Source of the DNA: an uncultured Roseovarius sp. | GTDB lineage: Bacteria > Pseudomonadota > Alphaproteobacteria > Rhodobacterales > Rhodobacteraceae | Assembly (NCBI GenBank): GCA_947499555.1 | Contig: CANMOU010000002.1 | Location: 868,029 to 932,028, forward strand | Reading direction: 5' to 3' | Length of the DNA: 64,000 nucleotides | Part shown: piece after piece, positions 6,006 through 60,223 of the stretch | How positions within the stretch are numbered: position 1 is the first letter of the stretch | Layout: every line of letters begins with the position of its first letter | Translations under genes and position numbers: made by a program | Notes under the pieces: model-generated | What the model was told of the DNA's origin: nothing | The model's input: the letters and a program-made list of their open reading frames with translations, nothing else | Databases searched by the model: none

Positions 6006-7004
6006 ATGAGCGCACAGCCGGGCAAACGGAACCTGATCACGGATGTGGCGGGCATCTACGTGGGTCAGGCGCAGGATGACCGGATCAAGACGGGCGTGAG
6101 CGTGGTGGTCGGTGACGCGCCCTTCACGGCCGGAGTGCATGTAATGGGAGGCGCGCCCGGAACGCGCGAAACGGATCTTTTGGCACCTGACAAGCTGGTC
6201 GAGCAGGTCGACGCGCTGGTTCTGTCGGGTGGCTCGGCTTTTGGGTTGGATGCGGCTTCCGGCGTTGCAGATGCGCTTCGGGCTGAGGGGCGCGGCTTTG
6301 CGGTCGGTGATCAGCGCGTGCCAATCGTACCCGGAGCAATCCTGTTCGATTTGCTCAATGGTGGGCAAAAGGACTGGGATACAAACCCCTATCGGAGCCT
6401 TGGCGCCGATGCCTTGGCTGCGCGCGGCGAGGGTTTTGATCTGGGCTCGCATGGCGCAGGCGCAGGGGCCACGACGGTCAATTTCAAAGGCGGCATCGGC
6501 TCGGCCTCTTTGGTTTTGCCTGATGGCACCACGGTCGGGGCACTTGTCGCAGTCAATGCGCTTGGCTCTGCCGTTGCAGGAGACGGACCCAATTTCTGGG
6601 CCGCACCGTTTGAGATCGATGATGAGTTTGGTGGCTTGGGCCCCGCTCAGGATTTCGGTGACACGCAGACGCCACGCACGAAGTTAGGTCAGCATCAGGC
6701 AACGACCATTGGCATCGTTGCCTCCGATGCCGTGCTCACACAGGCGCAATGCAAGCGCCTGGCCACAGCCGCTCATGATGGATACGCGCGCGCTCTGGTG
6801 CCATCCCATACGCCAATGGATGGAGATTTGATCTTTGCCGCATCAACGGGCCTGCACGCGGCACCGGATGTCTCTGCTCAACTGGCGATTGGACATGCCG
6901 CAGCGGTCTGCGTCAGCCGGGCGATTGCCCGAGCCGTGTTCGAAGCGCGCCCTGCAATAGACGACACGCTCCCATGTTGGGCCGAGACATTTGGGCATTC
7001 ATGA
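6006..7004 (+). CDS. P1-family (S58, DmpA/NylC-like) peptidase
   Basis: A 332-residue protein starting at ATG 6006; the frame is open upstream but only that ATG gives the family N-terminus (NLITDVAGIYVGQAQD). It shows P1-family blocks: VHVMGGAPGTRETDLL, DALVLSGGSAFGLDAASGV, VNALGSAV, then TTIGIVASDAVLTQAQ and SHTPMDGDLIFA near the C-terminus. These enzymes are Ntn-like hydrolases made by self-cleavage of a precursor. In NylC-type members cleavage occurs before a threonine in an N-T-T context; here the matching position reads A-T-T, so the cleavage-site Asn seems replaced by Ala. Known members are L-aminopeptidase/D-esterase or oligoamide hydrolases; the substrate is unknown. It is divergent from the creatinase gene and overlaps the end of the next, convergent gene. 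Confidence 0.82.
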   Translation: MSAQPGKRNLITDVAGIYVGQAQDDRIKTGVSVVVGDAPFTAGVHVMGGAPGTRETDLLAPDKLVEQVDALVLSGGSAFGLDAASGVADALRAEGRGFAVGDQRVPIVPGAILFDLLNGGQKDWDTNPYRSLGADALAARGEGFDLGSHGAGAGATTVNFKGGIGSASLVLPDGTTVGALVAVNALGSAVAGDGPNFWAAPFEIDDEFGGLGPAQDFGDTQTPRTKLGQHQATTIGIVASDAVLTQAQCKRLATAAHDGYARALVPSHTPMDGDLIFAASTGLHAAPDVSAQLAIGHAAAVCVSRAIARAVFEARPAIDDTLPCWAETFGHS

Positions 7005-50176: not shown

Positions 50177-50252
<76 letters not shown>

Positions 50253-50391: not shown

Positions 50392-50562
50392 TCAGTTGAA
50401 ATCTATCCCAGCAAGAGCGCTGTTAGCTTCCGCAGGTTGTTTTTCTTCTGAACCACTGGATGCAACACCTTCTTCTTTCCTTGAAGGAATCAAGGGCGGA
50501 AGTTCAACATCTTTTCTCGGAACCGGATCTGCAGTGAGTTCTCTTTTCTTAACTTCAGCCAT
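50392..50562 (-). CDS. 56-residue charged, probably disordered protein coupled to a proteasome-like gene
   Basis: ATG 50562 to TGA 50392-50394. GGAG lies seven bases upstream, and the gene overlaps the end of the Ntn-hydrolase gene by eight bases in another frame, so it is translated with it. The 56 residues begin MAEVKKRELTADPVPRKDVE and end ALAGIDFN; they are rich in Lys, Glu, Pro, Ser and Ala, have no hydrophobic core, and contain no cysteine or known motif. It may be a substrate tag, an inhibitor or an adaptor of the protease-like partner. It lacks the C-terminal Gly-Gly-Glu/Gln of Pup. No homologue is known to me. Confidence 0.55.
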   Translation of the reverse strand: MAEVKKRELTADPVPRKDVELPPLIPSRKEEGVASSGSEEKQPAEANSALAGIDFN

Positions 50563-51403
50563 GATTGGTCTCCAAGGGGTTTAGTTTGCTGTGATAGAAG
50601 TGCTTTCTATCTACCCATTTGAAATTTTCGTGTTTTGTCACCGTCGCAACGTCGATGTGACCACCCACTGAATTTGCGCCAGGAAGGAAACGCACAAACT
50701 GCTTTGTAGTTTCCGCCAGGAATCTGGCGAGCTCTATTGCATCGGATGTTGGCATTGCAGGATGCTCTAGGTTTGCTTGAGTAAACTGCGCAACCTCCGT
50801 CAGTGCATCATTCAACTTTTCTTCAGGAACGCCGCCTCGCATCAACGCTTGGCTCATTCCCTGACCGTAACCCAAGACCAAGCGATTTATTGCCTCGGGA
50901 GCGCCGCCCCAGCATACCCGACTTGGCTGATCGACACTTGCTTCACAAATAGGATCCGGGCAGTCGCCGTTATGTATTTCGATACGCCAAATTTCACCCA
51001 TCTCGGCTCCTGCCGAGTATCCACCCACCCAGAAGTGGAAAGTTCCCTCGGGTTTTGTTTTCAGCTTCTGGAACCGCTCGTCGAATAGATAACGACGCGC
51101 CTTTTCTGCCACCTCCTGGATGCTATAGGTGTCGTGCGAGATAAAAAAATCTCCGCCTTCTGCTTCAGTGAGTTTCCGAAAATCTTTGGCAATGGTCGAA
51201 ATAGACGAGTTGCCGAAGTTGCCTATGCCTGCCGTCATCGCGGCAATAGGGAGCCCCTTCTGCAAGTTAAATACCTTGTTGGCGTTGTCGTATGTATTGA
51301 TCGTAGCTGCAGAACCATCGGCCAATTGCGTCTGAAGCGAAGACGTGCTGTCGGCTGCGAAAACGAGACAGTCTTGTACTTTTACTGCCACACAGATTGT
51401 CAT
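50555..51403 (-). CDS. Proteasome/HslV-like Ntn hydrolase, unknown system
   Basis: A 282-residue protein. ATG 51403 is chosen because after Met removal Thr becomes residue 1, followed by ICVAVK and VFAADSTSSL, which places Asp at position 17 as in proteasome beta subunits and HslV. NANKVFNLQKGLPIAAMTAGIGNFG matches the region around the catalytic Lys (here Lys42, with an insertion before it) and the following strand. A later FHFWVGGYSAGAEMGEIWRIEI also fits the fold. It is about 100 residues longer than HslV and has no propeptide. No HslU, Mpa or other unfoldase gene is near. The Anbu family is the closest known relative I can suggest. A 56-residue gene overlaps its 3' end. Confidence 0.7.
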   Translation of the reverse strand: MTICVAVKVQDCLVFAADSTSSLQTQLADGSAATINTYDNANKVFNLQKGLPIAAMTAGIGNFGNSSISTIAKDFRKLTEAEGGDFFISHDTYSIQEVAEKARRYLFDERFQKLKTKPEGTFHFWVGGYSAGAEMGEIWRIEIHNGDCPDPICEASVDQPSRVCWGGAPEAINRLVLGYGQGMSQALMRGGVPEEKLNDALTEVAQFTQANLEHPAMPTSDAIELARFLAETTKQFVRFLPGANSVGGHIDVATVTKHENFKWVDRKHFYHSKLNPLETNHG

Positions 51404-53711: not shown

Positions 53712-54614
53712 ATACAAGATATCGTTAAAGAAATCTGGGACCATGTTGCCAATGCAAGTGTTCTACTCGCAATTCTTGGTGTCGTTGGCTACTTGTTTCG
53801 AGATGCCATTTCATCCTTTTTTACCAAATCTATGGAAGCGAGGTTCTTTGAACAAATTGAAAAGTTCAAAGCCGATATTCGTGAACGAGAAAGCGCGATA
53901 GAAAGGCAGTTCTCTGCGAAAGAACGAGAGGTGGATCGCATTGCGAACTATCTGTTTTCCGAACAACAAGCCAGAAACACCGTTGCCGCCACTAAGAGGA
54001 TAGAGGCGGCAGAAACGCTTTTGGCTAAATGCCACATACTTCAAAGACAACAATTTACTGTCGAAACCATGAAGTTGGTCGACGTCACAGCAGTACAAGA
54101 AAAACTCGACAAAAATGAAATGAGTCCGTTTTTCAAACAAATCGAAGAGATGACGGGGGCAGATAGCGCTTTGACTGAGTTGAAAGAAATCAATCACGCT
54201 GTTTGCGCCCTACATCTGAGCGATAGGTCTGTAAAGCTGTTCGACGCTTACCTGTCCGTTTTTGTCAGTGCCATTGCGTGGGTGAAACTAGCGGGTTTGG
54301 GGATGCCCCCGGCTAAGTATTTTAACGCTGATGGTATGGCGAAGGCTATCATTCCAGTCTTGCCATATACCGAAAAATCGTTTGAAAAACATGGTCCTGC
54401 TTTTGGCTTTTTTTGCGCCGATACTTTGTATCAAGAGTTGGTTCAGTCGCTACGTTCAGACATTGACGGCAAAGAAGCAGAGAAACGCGTTCAATCCACG
54501 GCGCTTCGCTACACCCTTGAGTCCCAACAAATCCATGTAGAGGCCAGGCAGAAATTGAAAGAGTTAGGCCTGCCGGACGATCTCACGCGAGATCAACCAT
54601 TGGTCAATGTCTAG
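53712..54614 (+). CDS. Membrane-anchored coiled-coil protein, possible AUA start
   Basis: A roughly 300-residue protein. The frame is open from a TGA near 53675. The first standard start codon, TTG 53793, would cut off a hydrophobic segment (ASVLLAILGVVGYLF) that is clearly part of the protein. GGAG (53700-53703) sits eight bases before an in-frame ATA at 53712, giving the N-terminus (M)QDIVKEIWDHV and then the helix, so translation probably starts at AUA, or an ancestral ATG has mutated. After the membrane helix comes a long coiled coil (about residues 48-110), then a helical C-terminal domain. No known family; the plan of anchor plus coiled coil suggests a structural or signalling role. Confidence 0.55.
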   Translation: MQDIVKEIWDHVANASVLLAILGVVGYLFRDAISSFFTKSMEARFFEQIEKFKADIRERESAIERQFSAKEREVDRIANYLFSEQQARNTVAATKRIEAAETLLAKCHILQRQQFTVETMKLVDVTAVQEKLDKNEMSPFFKQIEEMTGADSALTELKEINHAVCALHLSDRSVKLFDAYLSVFVSAIAWVKLAGLGMPPAKYFNADGMAKAIIPVLPYTEKSFEKHGPAFGFFCADTLYQELVQSLRSDIDGKEAEKRVQSTALRYTLESQQIHVEARQKLKELGLPDDLTRDQPLVNV

Positions 54615-55250: not shown

Positions 55251-56834
55251 ATGCTTTTTGGTTTCTCAAGCAAGACGCAGCCCAGAATTGCGCGCTCGAT
55301 ACGAAAACTCCATACGCGAAAAGTTCTACCGGCTTTGATTGCGGCTTTTCTCCTTCTTTGCTTCTCGACATTGGGCAGCAAAGCTAACCCATCAGTCGAA
55401 GAACTTGTGGCAGAAGGCGGCGTAAAAGTCCTGCGGGACAACGGACTTTCAGGCGCTTTTGATGATCAAATCAGACGTATGTCACCCAACATTCGAAAAG
55501 GTGAATCAGTGCCGGCTGCAGCTGGCACGCGCCTTCATGAAGAATACACTGAGTCATACCGGGAATACCTTGTTTCCCAAGACGCCGAACCACAAAGGCG
55601 CGACTTTTTGGGACGGCGTGCAAACAACAACAAGGTTTACAGGCTAGGCAACCTTGAGATTTGGCTTGAACATGGAAACGCAGCCAGCGGCGATAGGCAT
55701 AACCTGGACCTGACTGTTTGGGAGCTAGAGATCGATGGCAATGAGGTGAAACGTGCGAGAGGTGTTGGGACCGATCTGTTCACCAGGCATCCGCTCGACA
55801 AGTTGGCCGATGTTGACCATCGTGACCATTTCAGAAGAAAGGCATTTGCGGCTGAGGCGACAATAGGCGTAGCCGAAAAACTGGGCATAGAGGCTTCCAT
55901 CGATGTGAATCCTGACCGTTCATTTTATTACGTAGACAGCGTACTGGAACGAGACGCGACACCAGAGCATCGTTTCAACCCCTCAGATCTGGCTGATGAT
56001 AAGTATTGGACAAATGGCAAAGGCGGTAAAAGCCGAAGTGGTATTTACGCTGCACGCGCAATAGTTGGCGCATTGGACGACGGAAATGATCCCCGCGCGC
56101 TATCCACATCGGCAGATGCTTACTCTCCTGGCTCGGCGCCAGAAACTGAAGGAAAAAAAACAATAAGGAACTGGCTGCTTGGCATTGGCACAGGGGTTAT
56201 TTCATTTACGACCCAAGAAGCTCAGGCTGCCATCGAAGTTGTAAGCGATCGACGCACGCAGCTTTCGCAGGCCTACTATCATATTCTTGATGATAATTGG
56301 GATGAGCTAGCCGTCTTGCTGCAACAGGGTGACGTGGAAGCTCAGATGGCGGGCGAATTGGCTGCGTTGGGCTCCAAAGCAAGCGTGTTTTCCAGCGAAA
56401 TCATCAGGATGCTCTGGGAAAAATACAACGCGGCAAAAGCGGTTGAAACCCTCTTTTTCCTCGAGGGCGAAGGCGGAAAAGTACGACTGGGTGATGGAAA
56501 ATGGGCCAACACCTCGGCGGACGCAGCTCAGTTGAAAAATCAAAACATCTTGGATCAATGGGGCGGAAGAATGCCAATTCCGCAAGGCGTTTCAATGAGA
56601 GCCCCTCGTTTGGTTTTTGAACGTATTCTGGGCGCTGATCACGACGTCGATGTGTTTGTGAATGAGGTTAGTTTCGCCAAGATCGGGAATGGTCAAGACA
56701 TTGAGATAGCTTTGCCGAAGAACTTGGACGGAAGAACCATCCGCATTTTTGTTATTCCATTCCGAAACAATGGCGGAATTGACGATCTAGAAATTGTTTC
56801 ACCTGCCATCAAATACTATGCGTTTCCTGAATAG
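55251..56834 (+). CDS. Large secreted protein of unknown family
   Basis: A 527-residue protein with a strong ribosome site (AGGAGG) before ATG 55251. A hydrophobic segment at residues about 26-42 (VLPALIAAFLLLCFSTLG) followed by SKANPS suggests a long signal peptide. Three parts can be seen: an N-terminal domain (about 50-290) with many charged and His residues (HNLDLTVWELEIDGNEVKR, DVDHRDHFRRKAFAAEA); a weakly hydrophobic segment near 303-320 (NWLLGIGTGVISFTTQEAQA); and a C-terminal domain (about 330-527) with Gly/Asp-rich loops and strands at the end (IRIFVIPFRNNGGIDDL). I recognise no catalytic motif. It stands alone between the OB-fold and UspA genes, in an AT-richer stretch. Confidence 0.65.
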   Translation: MLFGFSSKTQPRIARSIRKLHTRKVLPALIAAFLLLCFSTLGSKANPSVEELVAEGGVKVLRDNGLSGAFDDQIRRMSPNIRKGESVPAAAGTRLHEEYTESYREYLVSQDAEPQRRDFLGRRANNNKVYRLGNLEIWLEHGNAASGDRHNLDLTVWELEIDGNEVKRARGVGTDLFTRHPLDKLADVDHRDHFRRKAFAAEATIGVAEKLGIEASIDVNPDRSFYYVDSVLERDATPEHRFNPSDLADDKYWTNGKGGKSRSGIYAARAIVGALDDGNDPRALSTSADAYSPGSAPETEGKKTIRNWLLGIGTGVISFTTQEAQAAIEVVSDRRTQLSQAYYHILDDNWDELAVLLQQGDVEAQMAGELAALGSKASVFSSEIIRMLWEKYNAAKAVETLFFLEGEGGKVRLGDGKWANTSADAAQLKNQNILDQWGGRMPIPQGVSMRAPRLVFERILGADHDVDVFVNEVSFAKIGNGQDIEIALPKNLDGRTIRIFVIPFRNNGGIDDLEIVSPAIKYYAFPE

Positions 56835-58456: not shown

Positions 58457-58942
58457 ATGCTTCGTAGAACCTTTCTTGCTTTCACGGCAGCCGCCTCATT
58501 GACATCCGCAACTGCCTTCGCAGGTGACGGTCCCAAAGACATTGTTGATACTGCGGTAGCAGCAGGGTCCTTCACCACGCTCGCCGCTGCGCTCGATGCT
58601 GCAGACCTTGTAGACACACTCAAGGGCGATGGTCCATTCACTGTCTTTGCCCCAACCGACGAAGCTTTTGCCGCCTTGCCAGAGGGCACAGTTGAAAGCT
58701 TGTTGTTGCCGGAAAACAAAGATCAGCTGGTAGCAATCCTCACTTACCATGTTGTGCCAGGTAAAGTGATGTCGACTGACCTTAGCGACGGTATGGCGGC
58801 AACAACCGTCCAAGGAGATGATCTGACAGTTGACCTGTCCGAAGGCGTGAAGATCAACTCAGTGTCGGTCACAACGGCTGACATCGAAGCTAGTAACGGT
58901 GTGATTCACGTCGTCGACGCGGTTATCTTGCCAAGTAGCTAA
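58457..58942 (+). CDS. Secreted fasciclin (FAS1) domain protein
   Basis: A 161-residue protein with GGAG eight bases before ATG 58457 and a signal peptide ending ATAFAGDG. The mature part is a single FAS1 domain: [48 protein letters not shown] (H1 region), [12 protein letters not shown], and the C-terminal [16 protein letters not shown]1 domains mediate adhesion or surface contact. A terminator follows. Confidence 0.93.
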
Positions 58943-59099: not shown

Positions 59100-59753
59100 T
59101 CACACCTCCGGCGGCTGACTACCGCGCCCAACGACTGTCAGAGAGCCGTTCGGGAGCGGCTTCTGAAGCTTCAAGGCGTCTTCCGTCTCAGCAGTAAGCC
59201 ACGTCTCCACCTCCTGCTGTGTCGTCAGGATAACGGGCATGGCCTTGGGGTGGATGGCACCGACCTCGGCATTCGCCTCCGTGGTCAGGAAGCCATAGAG
59301 ATTGTCAGTGGTTTCGCCATCCTTAAGCTTTCGGACAGAGGTCCATTGCGTCCAGATACCCGCAAAGAAGGCCAGAGGCTGCTCTTCAGACAAGGCAAAC
59401 CACACAGGCTCGGATTTCTGCCCAGGCTCGTTGTGCGGCTCTGAGAAGGCCGTGAAGGGCACAACGCATCTGTTGCACACTCCCAGCCACCGGCGCCAAT
59501 GCGGGGATTTGGTGTTGCGGACATTGGTCACGCCTCGGTCTGTCTTCTTGCCCTTCAAGGCAAAGGTGGGTGACGGCATGCCCCATCGCATCATGGACAA
59601 GACATGCTCGTCTTCAGTGCGGTGCACCACAGGGGCCTGATAGTCGGGGTAGATACCCGTCAGAGGGGCCAGGTTGCCCACCTGGTCGTCAATGCCGCCA
59701 AACAGATCCCGGATGGCTGCTTGTCCCTTGGTCATAGAATAGAGGTTGCACAC
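59100..59753 (-). CDS. SOS-response-associated peptidase (SRAP/YedK family)
   Basis: A 217-residue SRAP protein that covalently traps abasic sites in single-stranded DNA. GTG 59753 is chosen because it puts Cys at position 2 (C-N-L-Y-S), the catalytic nucleophile exposed after Met removal, and GGGAG lies nine bases upstream. Other family blocks: MRWGMPSPTF, VTNVRNTKSPHWRRWL, NRCVVPFTAFSEP with the active-site Glu, FFAGIWTQW, and HPKAMPVIL with the conserved His. The frame is open for another 126 codons upstream with a coding-like sequence (see the separate entry), so longer start calls would bury the Cys. Confidence 0.85.
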   Translation of the reverse strand: MCNLYSMTKGQAAIRDLFGGIDDQVGNLAPLTGIYPDYQAPVVHRTEDEHVLSMMRWGMPSPTFALKGKKTDRGVTNVRNTKSPHWRRWLGVCNRCVVPFTAFSEPHNEPGQKSEPVWFALSEEQPLAFFAGIWTQWTSVRKLKDGETTDNLYGFLTTEANAEVGAIHPKAMPVILTTQQEVETWLTAETEDALKLQKPLPNGSLTVVGRGSQPPEV

Positions 59754-60080
59754 GCCAAACAACTCCCAGCCTTGCCACGTGCCACTATGGGCTGGAGAGG
59801 AATAAACATGACGCTGGGTGCCATCTGCAAGTGTGAGGTCGGGAAAGGCATGAACCATAGCCCGTGCGCCCTCAACATCTCTCAGGTAGACACCTATGGC
59901 ATCTGTCGCGAGTCCAGGCGAGGAATGCACTGCGTACTCACCCGGCCCAATCTCACAGCGCAGCCAACTGTGCAGATGATCCAACCTTTGCCCCAACCCC
60001 CATTCGGGTATCTGGAACCTGACCCGGACAGGAAATGCGATTTCATCGGTTTTCTTCTGGGGTGGAGAGCGTCGAACCAT
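59754..60080 (-). CDS. In-frame upstream domain joined to the SRAP gene
   Basis: From ATG 60080 the frame runs without a stop for 109 codons into the SRAP start. The sequence looks like a real protein: DEIAFPVRVRFQIPEWGLGQ, LDHLHSWLRCEIGPGEYAVHSS and ARAMVHAFPDLTLADGTQRH resemble an alpha/beta domain. It ends TWQGWELFG directly before the SRAP GTG-Cys. It may be a separate small gene whose stop codon was lost, or a fusion made from one of two starts. I know no family name. Confidence 0.45.
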
Positions 60081-60223
60081 CAAGAGAACATTACAGGAAC
60101 ATTTGAGTCGTGCAATGGGGTTGGTTGGCATTGCGTGGATGGATGGTAGAACGGCTGGGATAATCCAATTAGAGATATCTTTCTACTTTCCCACGCGTTT
60201 GCGGCAGCGATATACATTGTGTG

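Follow-up and report, generated by a model that had tools for sequence, protein, structure and literature searches.

Beside a tRNA-Ala gene of an uncultured Roseovarius sp., two overlapping ORFs raise the question of whether a hydrolase of the proteasome type can be paired with a very small protein encoded at the end of its own gene, and of what that small protein might do. Throughout, the window is the whole 64 000 nt stretch of DNA that was analysed. Judged from the sequences compared here, the two ORFs are an overlapping two-gene module of a predicted proteasome-like Ntn hydrolase and a small, polar, fast-evolving partner.

Layout of the locus

The locus includes the following features, given by position in the window.

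50555..51403, minus strand: gene for the predicted proteasome-like Ntn hydrolase, 282 aa from the ATG, a short form; assigned from relatives and profile matches (20S beta subunits, Anbu-type)
51398..51400, minus strand: codon of the predicted nucleophile, Thr2 (Thr1 without Met); Thr in 75/75 long-form viral loci, Ser in the acidobacterial branch
51350..51352, minus strand: codon of Asp18 (Asp17); invariant in 19 short forms (profile A3), 17 long forms (profile A4) and 75/75 viral loci
51275..51277, minus strand: codon of Lys43 (Lys42), equivalent of proteasome Lys33; invariant in A3, the corresponding Lys invariant in A4
50392..50562, minus strand: small partner gene, 56 aa, polar and proline-rich; conserved stretch in the four nearest relatives, purifying selection
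50555..50562, minus strand: 8 nt overlap of the two frames, ATGGCTGA; different reading frames
50570..50573, minus strand: Shine-Dalgarno sequence GGAG of the small gene, 7 nt upstream of its ATG and within the last codons of the enzyme gene
50177..50252, plus strand: tRNA-Ala(GGC), edge of a variable region, beyond the small gene

The enzyme begins M-T-I-C-V, and T2, D18 and K43 become Thr1, Asp17 and Lys42 on removal of Met. These residues, the 8 nt overlap and the ribosome site of the small gene are all as given in a preliminary description of the sequence. The identical overlap of enzyme and partner genes is found in L002, L009, L010, L011 and L017, and comparable placement of the Shine-Dalgarno sequence is seen in relatives, e.g. 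AACAAGGAGCC in Acidobacteria. The overlap suggests that translation of the two genes may be coupled. RNA structure at the overlap was no more stable than that of shuffled sequences.

A scan of the genome for PF07724 (AAA_2) gave nine matches, none of them in the window, and a Pfam scan of 21 ORFs between 45.7 and 63.6 kb, the pair excluded, found no AAA domain, in agreement with the original statement that no AAA partner is near. The HslU-like AAA_2 match of this genome lies beside the true HslV gene (C2:573-574 kb), about 345 kb from the pair on the same contig.

The pair adjoins the tRNA-Ala gene, as was first described, and the site is variable. In nine relatives of the same genus with readable downstream sequence, other ORFs were recognised by eye after the tRNA-Ala gene; in two of the nine (L141 and L143) these are integrase-like and serine-recombinase-like, again by eye. 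A 22 nt exact copy of the 3' end of tRNA-Ala and the bases that follow is present on another contig of the same genome (G000:C4:234627-234648) and is possibly an old attachment site. No convincing direct repeats flanking the pair were found in the window. Further along are two larger variable-region ORFs (55251-56834 and 53793-54614) that had no convincing family match in Pfam, NCBIfam, PADLOC and PHROG scans, a fasciclin-domain gene (58457-58942) and an SRAP (SOS response associated peptidase) gene (59100-60131). The window neighbours scanned with PADLOC gave no convincing match.

Identity of the enzyme

As a single sequence, the window enzyme gave no Pfam match, no PADLOC match and, against the PDB, no proteasome match. 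An NCBIfam match (E 0.0024) is at chance level and was discarded. At the enzyme locus the Pfam proteasome model scored 11.2 bits (cut-off 22.4) and covered the first strands only; the C-terminal part matched PHROG 5990 (E 1e-11), a family of phage proteins whose function is unknown.

Two profiles were used for comparison, A3, made from 19 short forms, and A4, made from 17 long forms. Against the PDB, 18 of the 21 sequences matched by A3 were proteasome beta subunits (best E 0.012, yeast beta type-4), amounting to two subunits of yeast and their relatives, and 15 of the 24 matched by A4 were beta subunits (best E 0.0054); these matches are weak per stretch, none is significant singly, and the same few subunits recur in many copies among the chains matched. 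The N-terminal Thr, the Lys and the strand GG-x-(I/V)-D-V-A of A4 are in register with the Thermoplasma acidophilum beta subunit, whose KKLF stretch aligns with the invariant Lys. The Pfam proteasome model also touches three of the 17 long forms, at best with E 0.006. A profile comparison joins the short and the long forms in a single family (probability 99.9, E 1.7e-34).

Compared with seven Anbu-type sequences, A3 gave a full-length profile alignment (probability 84.7) with the catalytic residues in register, and a class-wide search with A3 also matched an Anbu-type protein, G416, recognised by eye (E 5.6e-4). The remaining profile comparisons scored 4.2 (A3-HslV), 3.2 (A4-HslV) and 2.1 (A4-Anbu); the method is insensitive, HslV-Anbu itself scoring 0.2, and low scores mean little. 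In this insensitive test HslV is a weak candidate for the nearest relative. The names HslV and Anbu were assigned to the comparison sequences by reading them.

Thr at position 2 and Asp at position 18 are kept in all 75 of the viral long forms, and the acidobacterial short forms have Ser at the nucleophile position instead of Thr. The preliminary description had held that homologues with no Thr at position 1 would count against a Ntn hydrolase. The Ser1 branch weakens that reading and falls short of refuting it, because Thr1/Ser1 is given as the nucleophile of proteasome homologues in the 2021 survey (PMC8665760). Overall, profile matches to 20S beta subunits and the Anbu-type alignment suggest that the enzyme is, as originally proposed, a proteasome-like Ntn hydrolase, and by sequence its catalytic residues are all present.

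Relatives and distribution

Full-length relatives of similar size were found in Rhodobacterales and other Alphaproteobacteria (57-81 % identity), in Acidobacteria (37-41 %) and on viral contigs (37-45 %). Longer relatives, of about 400-480 aa, were found via a common C-terminal segment. The family is patchy, with matches in 6 of 195 relatives, 11 of 337 genomes in the class (one being the Anbu-type match) and 11 of 398 in the phylum, counts that take in the window's own genome where it was searched and a few weak matches. In E. coli, each of two queries matched 22 of 5,426 genomes at the DNA level, over 12-21 % of the query length.

Some copies are rearranged. In L012 (about 6400-6950) there is apparently a partial tandem repeat downstream, made up of the partner gene and the enzyme gene's 3' end. 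In G113:C32 (L003, L007 and L008) the enzyme gene is in pieces, with N-terminal, middle and C-terminal parts separate and ~1.5 kb between the middle and C-terminal pieces.

Frequency of the small ORF

A strict rule was applied to score a partner, namely an ORF of 40-110 aa with its start codon at -40 to +30 nt of the enzyme stop and one of four four-base Shine-Dalgarno words 4-16 nt upstream. The rule was fixed after most loci of the first set had been inspected; a set of eight loci and a set of 75 viral loci came later. It was satisfied by 39 of 51 loci of the first set and by 4 of 8 from a later search, 43 of 59 in total, and by 30/45 and 16/23 clusters at 70 and 50 % identity, respectively. 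With a relaxed rule (35-145 aa, -60 to +70) the cluster counts were 36/45 and 20/23. The partner overlaps the enzyme gene in 20 of the 43. Eleven of the 16 misses have another ORF of 35-139 aa near the stop, seen by eye (L004, L024, L027, L029, L040, L048, L055, L056, L071, L120 and L122). Five of the 59 have no small ORF in the ranges inspected (L030, L031, L074, L119 and L121), and L030 carries a longer frame (130 aa or more).

The loci left out of the 59 were duplicates (L008, L025, L033, L034, L061 and L131), broken or truncated (L003, L016, L017 and L020), too distant or weak (L063 and L064), lacking downstream sequence (L066), unparsed (L124), or omitted by oversight or as near kin (L041/L019, L077, L078, L079 and L080). 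When excluded loci were checked afterwards, L003, L017, L041, L063, L077, L078 and L079 satisfied the strict rule and L016 failed it, having a 66 aa ORF that lacks a Shine-Dalgarno word. The L080 and L066 records stop at the stop codon of the enzyme.

For the later viral set, 184 long forms were found and 80 were kept, of which five had already been seen, leaving 75. The strict rule was satisfied by 59 of these, by 38 of 50 clusters at 90 % and by 27 of 39 at 70 %. Twelve of the 16 misses were inspected (all but L189, L223, L250 and L251). Each of the 12 has a 34-71 aa ORF at +5 to +18; in six it is only 34-37 aa.

As controls, 30 HslV loci yielded 26 parsed HslV genes, on none of which the rule fired. 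It did so for six of the 62 annotated neighbour genes in the same records, for 22 of the 214 other long ORFs scored and for 5.7 % of shuffled sequences. A small polar ORF at the enzyme stop is a frequent partner across phyla, far above the controls. The check suggested at the outset, whether the small gene is always beside the enzyme gene, gave a divided answer: it is at most loci (43/59 and 59/75), not at all of them.

The partner as a gene

In all 14 partner pairs tested, pN was lower than pS, e.g. 0.33 against 0.85 for the window and Marivita L009 (52 codons, the first four skipped). These proportions were taken in place of dN/dS, which had a value of 0.00 where synonymous sites were saturated. 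In the pairs tested, the partner ORF is a gene under purifying selection. The small frame is conserved in relatives, the opposite of the finding that the preliminary description had named as grounds for rejecting the pair.

The partner is annotated in six phage, satellite or plasmid records viewed (L065, L067, L069, L070, L072 and L079) and lacks annotation in the two E. coli prophages viewed, where it is 49 and 34 aa. That the small ORF is a chance open frame might be argued from those two unannotated cases, and from the rule having fired on 6/62 annotated neighbours, though four of these look like real small genes. We regard it as extremely improbable, as the rates are far above those of the controls, the substitution pattern contradicts it for the lineages tested, and the ORF was annotated as a gene in six records. 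The gene is easily missed, being tiny and sometimes unannotated, and it stands beside most members of the branch.

A profile of short-form partners was also searched against the 195 relatives for partners standing alone. It matched 34 genomes at E up to 0.1, the only match below 0.001 being the window itself, and the match in G095 (E 0.03) adjoins an enzyme gene. The fragments matched in the 32 other genomes (E 0.005-0.1) were dismissed as chance, and many fall in one conserved ~490 aa ORF (nine loci listed), labelled SBP56-like by recognition. Partner residues 5-26 resemble a stretch of this ORF (G000:C4:119662-119727), and mimicry of a host protein was considered and rejected, the resemblance being probably due to chance.

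Composition, conserved stretches and possible roles of the partner

The residues V, I, L, F, W, Y and C make up 20 % of the 56 aa window protein (P0002), and the initial view that it lacks hydrophobic residues went too far. Among viral loci, 40 distinct partners satisfying the strict rule range from 45 to 74 aa in length, 35 of them carry a net positive charge, and 66 % of their residues are polar or disorder-promoting, compared with 53 % in the enzymes. On composition only, the partner is predicted to be disordered.

Conservation could be compared for both genes in 12 pairs, and in all 12 the partner is the less conserved, sometimes slightly. Identities for the window and L009 are 54 % (partner) and 81 % (enzyme), and for L069 and L076 they are 92 and 94 %. 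DPxPR...PP is kept in the window partner and its four nearest relatives. Among viral partners, LREWQK-FNP and K(S/T)-x-x-DFF are kept in groups, and (F/Y)F-(N/D/K)-(L/I/V)-(P/S) in six others. The viral patterns were picked after the sequences had been viewed and many of the carriers are kin, so that a shuffle test of them overstates significance. No motif common to partners of all lineages was found.

These properties bear on two roles. The partner could be an obligate activator, assembly factor or substrate adaptor that replaces the AAA+ unfoldase, docking on the enzyme and opening its site or delivering targets. The frequent direct coupling of the two genes, the lack of an AAA_2 gene in the window and the resemblance of the lineage-specific conserved stretches to docking motifs would all suit such a role. 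However, we consider it rather unlikely, as the partner is the less conserved of the two in every pair and ranges from 34 to about 139 aa, which is unusual for a structural subunit.

Alternatively, the partner might be a dedicated substrate, either cleaved by the enzyme or joined by it to another protein via a Thr1 acyl intermediate in the manner of connectase, which would make it a tag with chemistry other than that of Pup. Connectase, a proteasome homologue acting as a specific protein ligase (PMC8665760), provides a precedent, and single lineages do hold one conserved stretch in an otherwise variable partner. Against this, a motif shared by all lineages is lacking, no consistent third gene was seen except the acidobacterial PIN gene (see below), and a C-terminal GG[E/Q] occurs in 0/40 distinct viral partners. 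The window partner ends GIDFN, bearing out the earlier remark that it lacks the Gly-Gly-Glu/Gln end. A substrate or tag is, in our view, unlikely.

Genomic settings of the pair

The enzyme-partner module is patchy across phyla and is often on prophages, satellites or plasmids, or beside tRNA genes. Three streptococcal satellite-phage records end with the enzyme gene and the partner gene; in Javan421, the pair is internal with a RelBE pair further along. Genes of the Gp49 and HTH types precede the enzyme in satellite Javan103, and genes with similar sizes and labels were present in the other satellites viewed. The Gp49/HTH genes speak for a link to toxins, but such pairs occur widely among mobile elements.

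In the acidobacterial order, L014 has the enzyme, a partner (81-98 aa in this order) and then a PIN domain (PF01850, E 5.7e-5; the score of 24.2 bits just exceeds the cut-off, 23.6). Among 200 genomes of the order, the partner was found in three and the PIN gene was strong in the same three, with further PIN matches in three more genomes (E 2e-4 to 6e-4). The enzyme was found in those three genomes, with one divergent and one weak match in addition. Only a single lineage shows this link to PIN, which may reflect an independent toxin-antitoxin pair.

Of 10 plasmid records that carry the enzyme gene, at least five have multiubiquitin and ThiF (E1-like) genes at a distance of up to about 3 kb from it; a Mesorhizobium record and three from Rhizobium were viewed and a fourth Rhizobium was placed by coordinates. 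The long-form loci near these genes are L074, L075, L077 and L078, and the Rhizobium loci have a ClpP-like gene too. The Mesorhizobium and Rhizobium enzymes are 28.5 % identical, and therefore at least two lineages stand near multiubiquitin and ThiF. An E1-type gene was present in 110 of 72,556 plasmid records (60 of the 110 listed).

Upstream neighbours, taken as the longest ORF ending within 900 nt upstream, were listed for 30 of 31 viral clusters; nine picked from them by eye, and one E. coli neighbour in addition, were annotated, so that the proportions are not estimates. Three are same-strand repressors or regulators (L188, representing a prophage cluster of seven members, L241, representing one of six, and the E. 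coli prophage L254), endolysin is upstream of the enzyme in six representatives (gaps of 105-813 nt), and a head gene is upstream in L187. The pair is among head and neck genes in L070, and a portal-like ORF, identified by eye, follows it in L020. In E. coli prophage L253, the enzyme gene is between a methylase gene and Q. Both there and in L068, the late genes next to it are on the other strand.

The positions among head or portal genes (L187, L070 and L020) fit a role in the lytic cycle, for example as a head-maturation or lysis-timing protease with its partner, and count against a defence role. The enzyme gene is also near lysis genes in several phages. However, the sites are diverse, L253 and L068 are on the strand opposite to the late genes, and elsewhere the pair is beside a repressor or on satellites, plasmids and chromosomes. 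A lytic-cycle gene is in our judgement improbable.

A model for the pair

Among the roles first suggested for the small protein (tag, inhibitor or adaptor), we would favour inhibitor- or antitoxin-like control, which fits the coupling of the genes, a partner that changes faster than its enzyme, the positions among mobile cargo and the PIN version in Acidobacteria. The best supported description, as far as sequence can tell, is that of a mobile module related to lysogeny or stress, whose partner, produced together with the protease, would control it. More specifically, it is quite possible, if somewhat short of probable, that the pair is a mobile toxin-antitoxin-like or prophage/anti-phage defence module with a coupled inhibitor. 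Against this, PADLOC gave no convincing match in the 10 enzymes scanned (one at E 0.0056).

In such a module the enzyme would act as effector. Synthesised alongside it, the partner would bind through a short linear motif as an inhibitor or pseudo-substrate and keep the protease silent. Loss or displacement of a labile partner on infection, host shut-off or the arrival of a competing element would then release the protease. In the acidobacterial version, with a PIN-domain gene behind the partner, the partner may act as, or have become, an antitoxin.

A broader proposal, tentative and on balance doubtful, is that this branch of the proteasome superfamily is a self-contained two-gene mobile immune or addiction module, in which a protease or ligase is set by a co-translated disordered peptide and not by an ATPase, with lineage variants that add an RNase (PIN) or adjoin ubiquitin-like conjugation genes. 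If the partner is an inhibitor or a tag, a proteasome-type enzyme would be under the control of a peptide, not an ATPase, in phages of several bacterial phyla.

Comparison with known systems

Fuchs, Alva and Lupas (2021, PMC8665760) described 22 new homologues of the proteasome, including the PMI families (proteasome homologue with multiple insertions), in which the insertions are long; PMI-4 is known from several bacterial phyla and from phages. The insertions in the present alignments agree with that account. They reported no informative genomic context for the new homologues and left their functions open for that reason; the small partner is a first candidate for a regulator or substrate. 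The PMI families resemble the present family in the Thr1/Ser1, Asp17, Lys33 plan, the long insertions and the lack of a reported AAA+ partner. They differ in that the available text of PMC8665760 does not mention a coupled small gene. By description, the only basis of comparison with the published families, the long forms are probably PMI-4, and we infer that the window protein is PMI-2-like or of an undescribed branch. The preliminary description had spoken of an undescribed protease system. This holds for the small partner as far as that text goes, and fails for the kind of enzyme, which had already been described. In one open-access library, without preprints, no paper on a small partner, the two-gene module or a defence role of such enzymes was found. 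The enzyme itself is not new, being a member of a known superfamily.

Connectase is likewise a Thr1 proteasome homologue that acts as one gene (PMC8665760), but it is archaeal and lacks helices H1-H2.

The Pup-proteasome system also combines a small disordered partner with a proteasome-type enzyme. The present partner differs in lacking the GG[E/Q] end and in varying among lineages, and the window has no AAA_2 gene. HslUV differs in that no HslU is beside the window enzyme, the HslU-like gene adjoining the true HslV of the genome. Anbu resembles the short form in its full-length profile alignment with catalytic residues in register. However, the same genome has a separate Anbu-type gene (G000:C1:71348) as well as HslV (G000:C2:572877), and we know of no partner gene of this kind for Anbu. 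RexAB and other prophage exclusion genes, and toxin-antitoxin pairs, consist of other proteins; they share with the present pair a place beside a repressor, a coupled two-gene layout and carriage as cargo of mobile elements.
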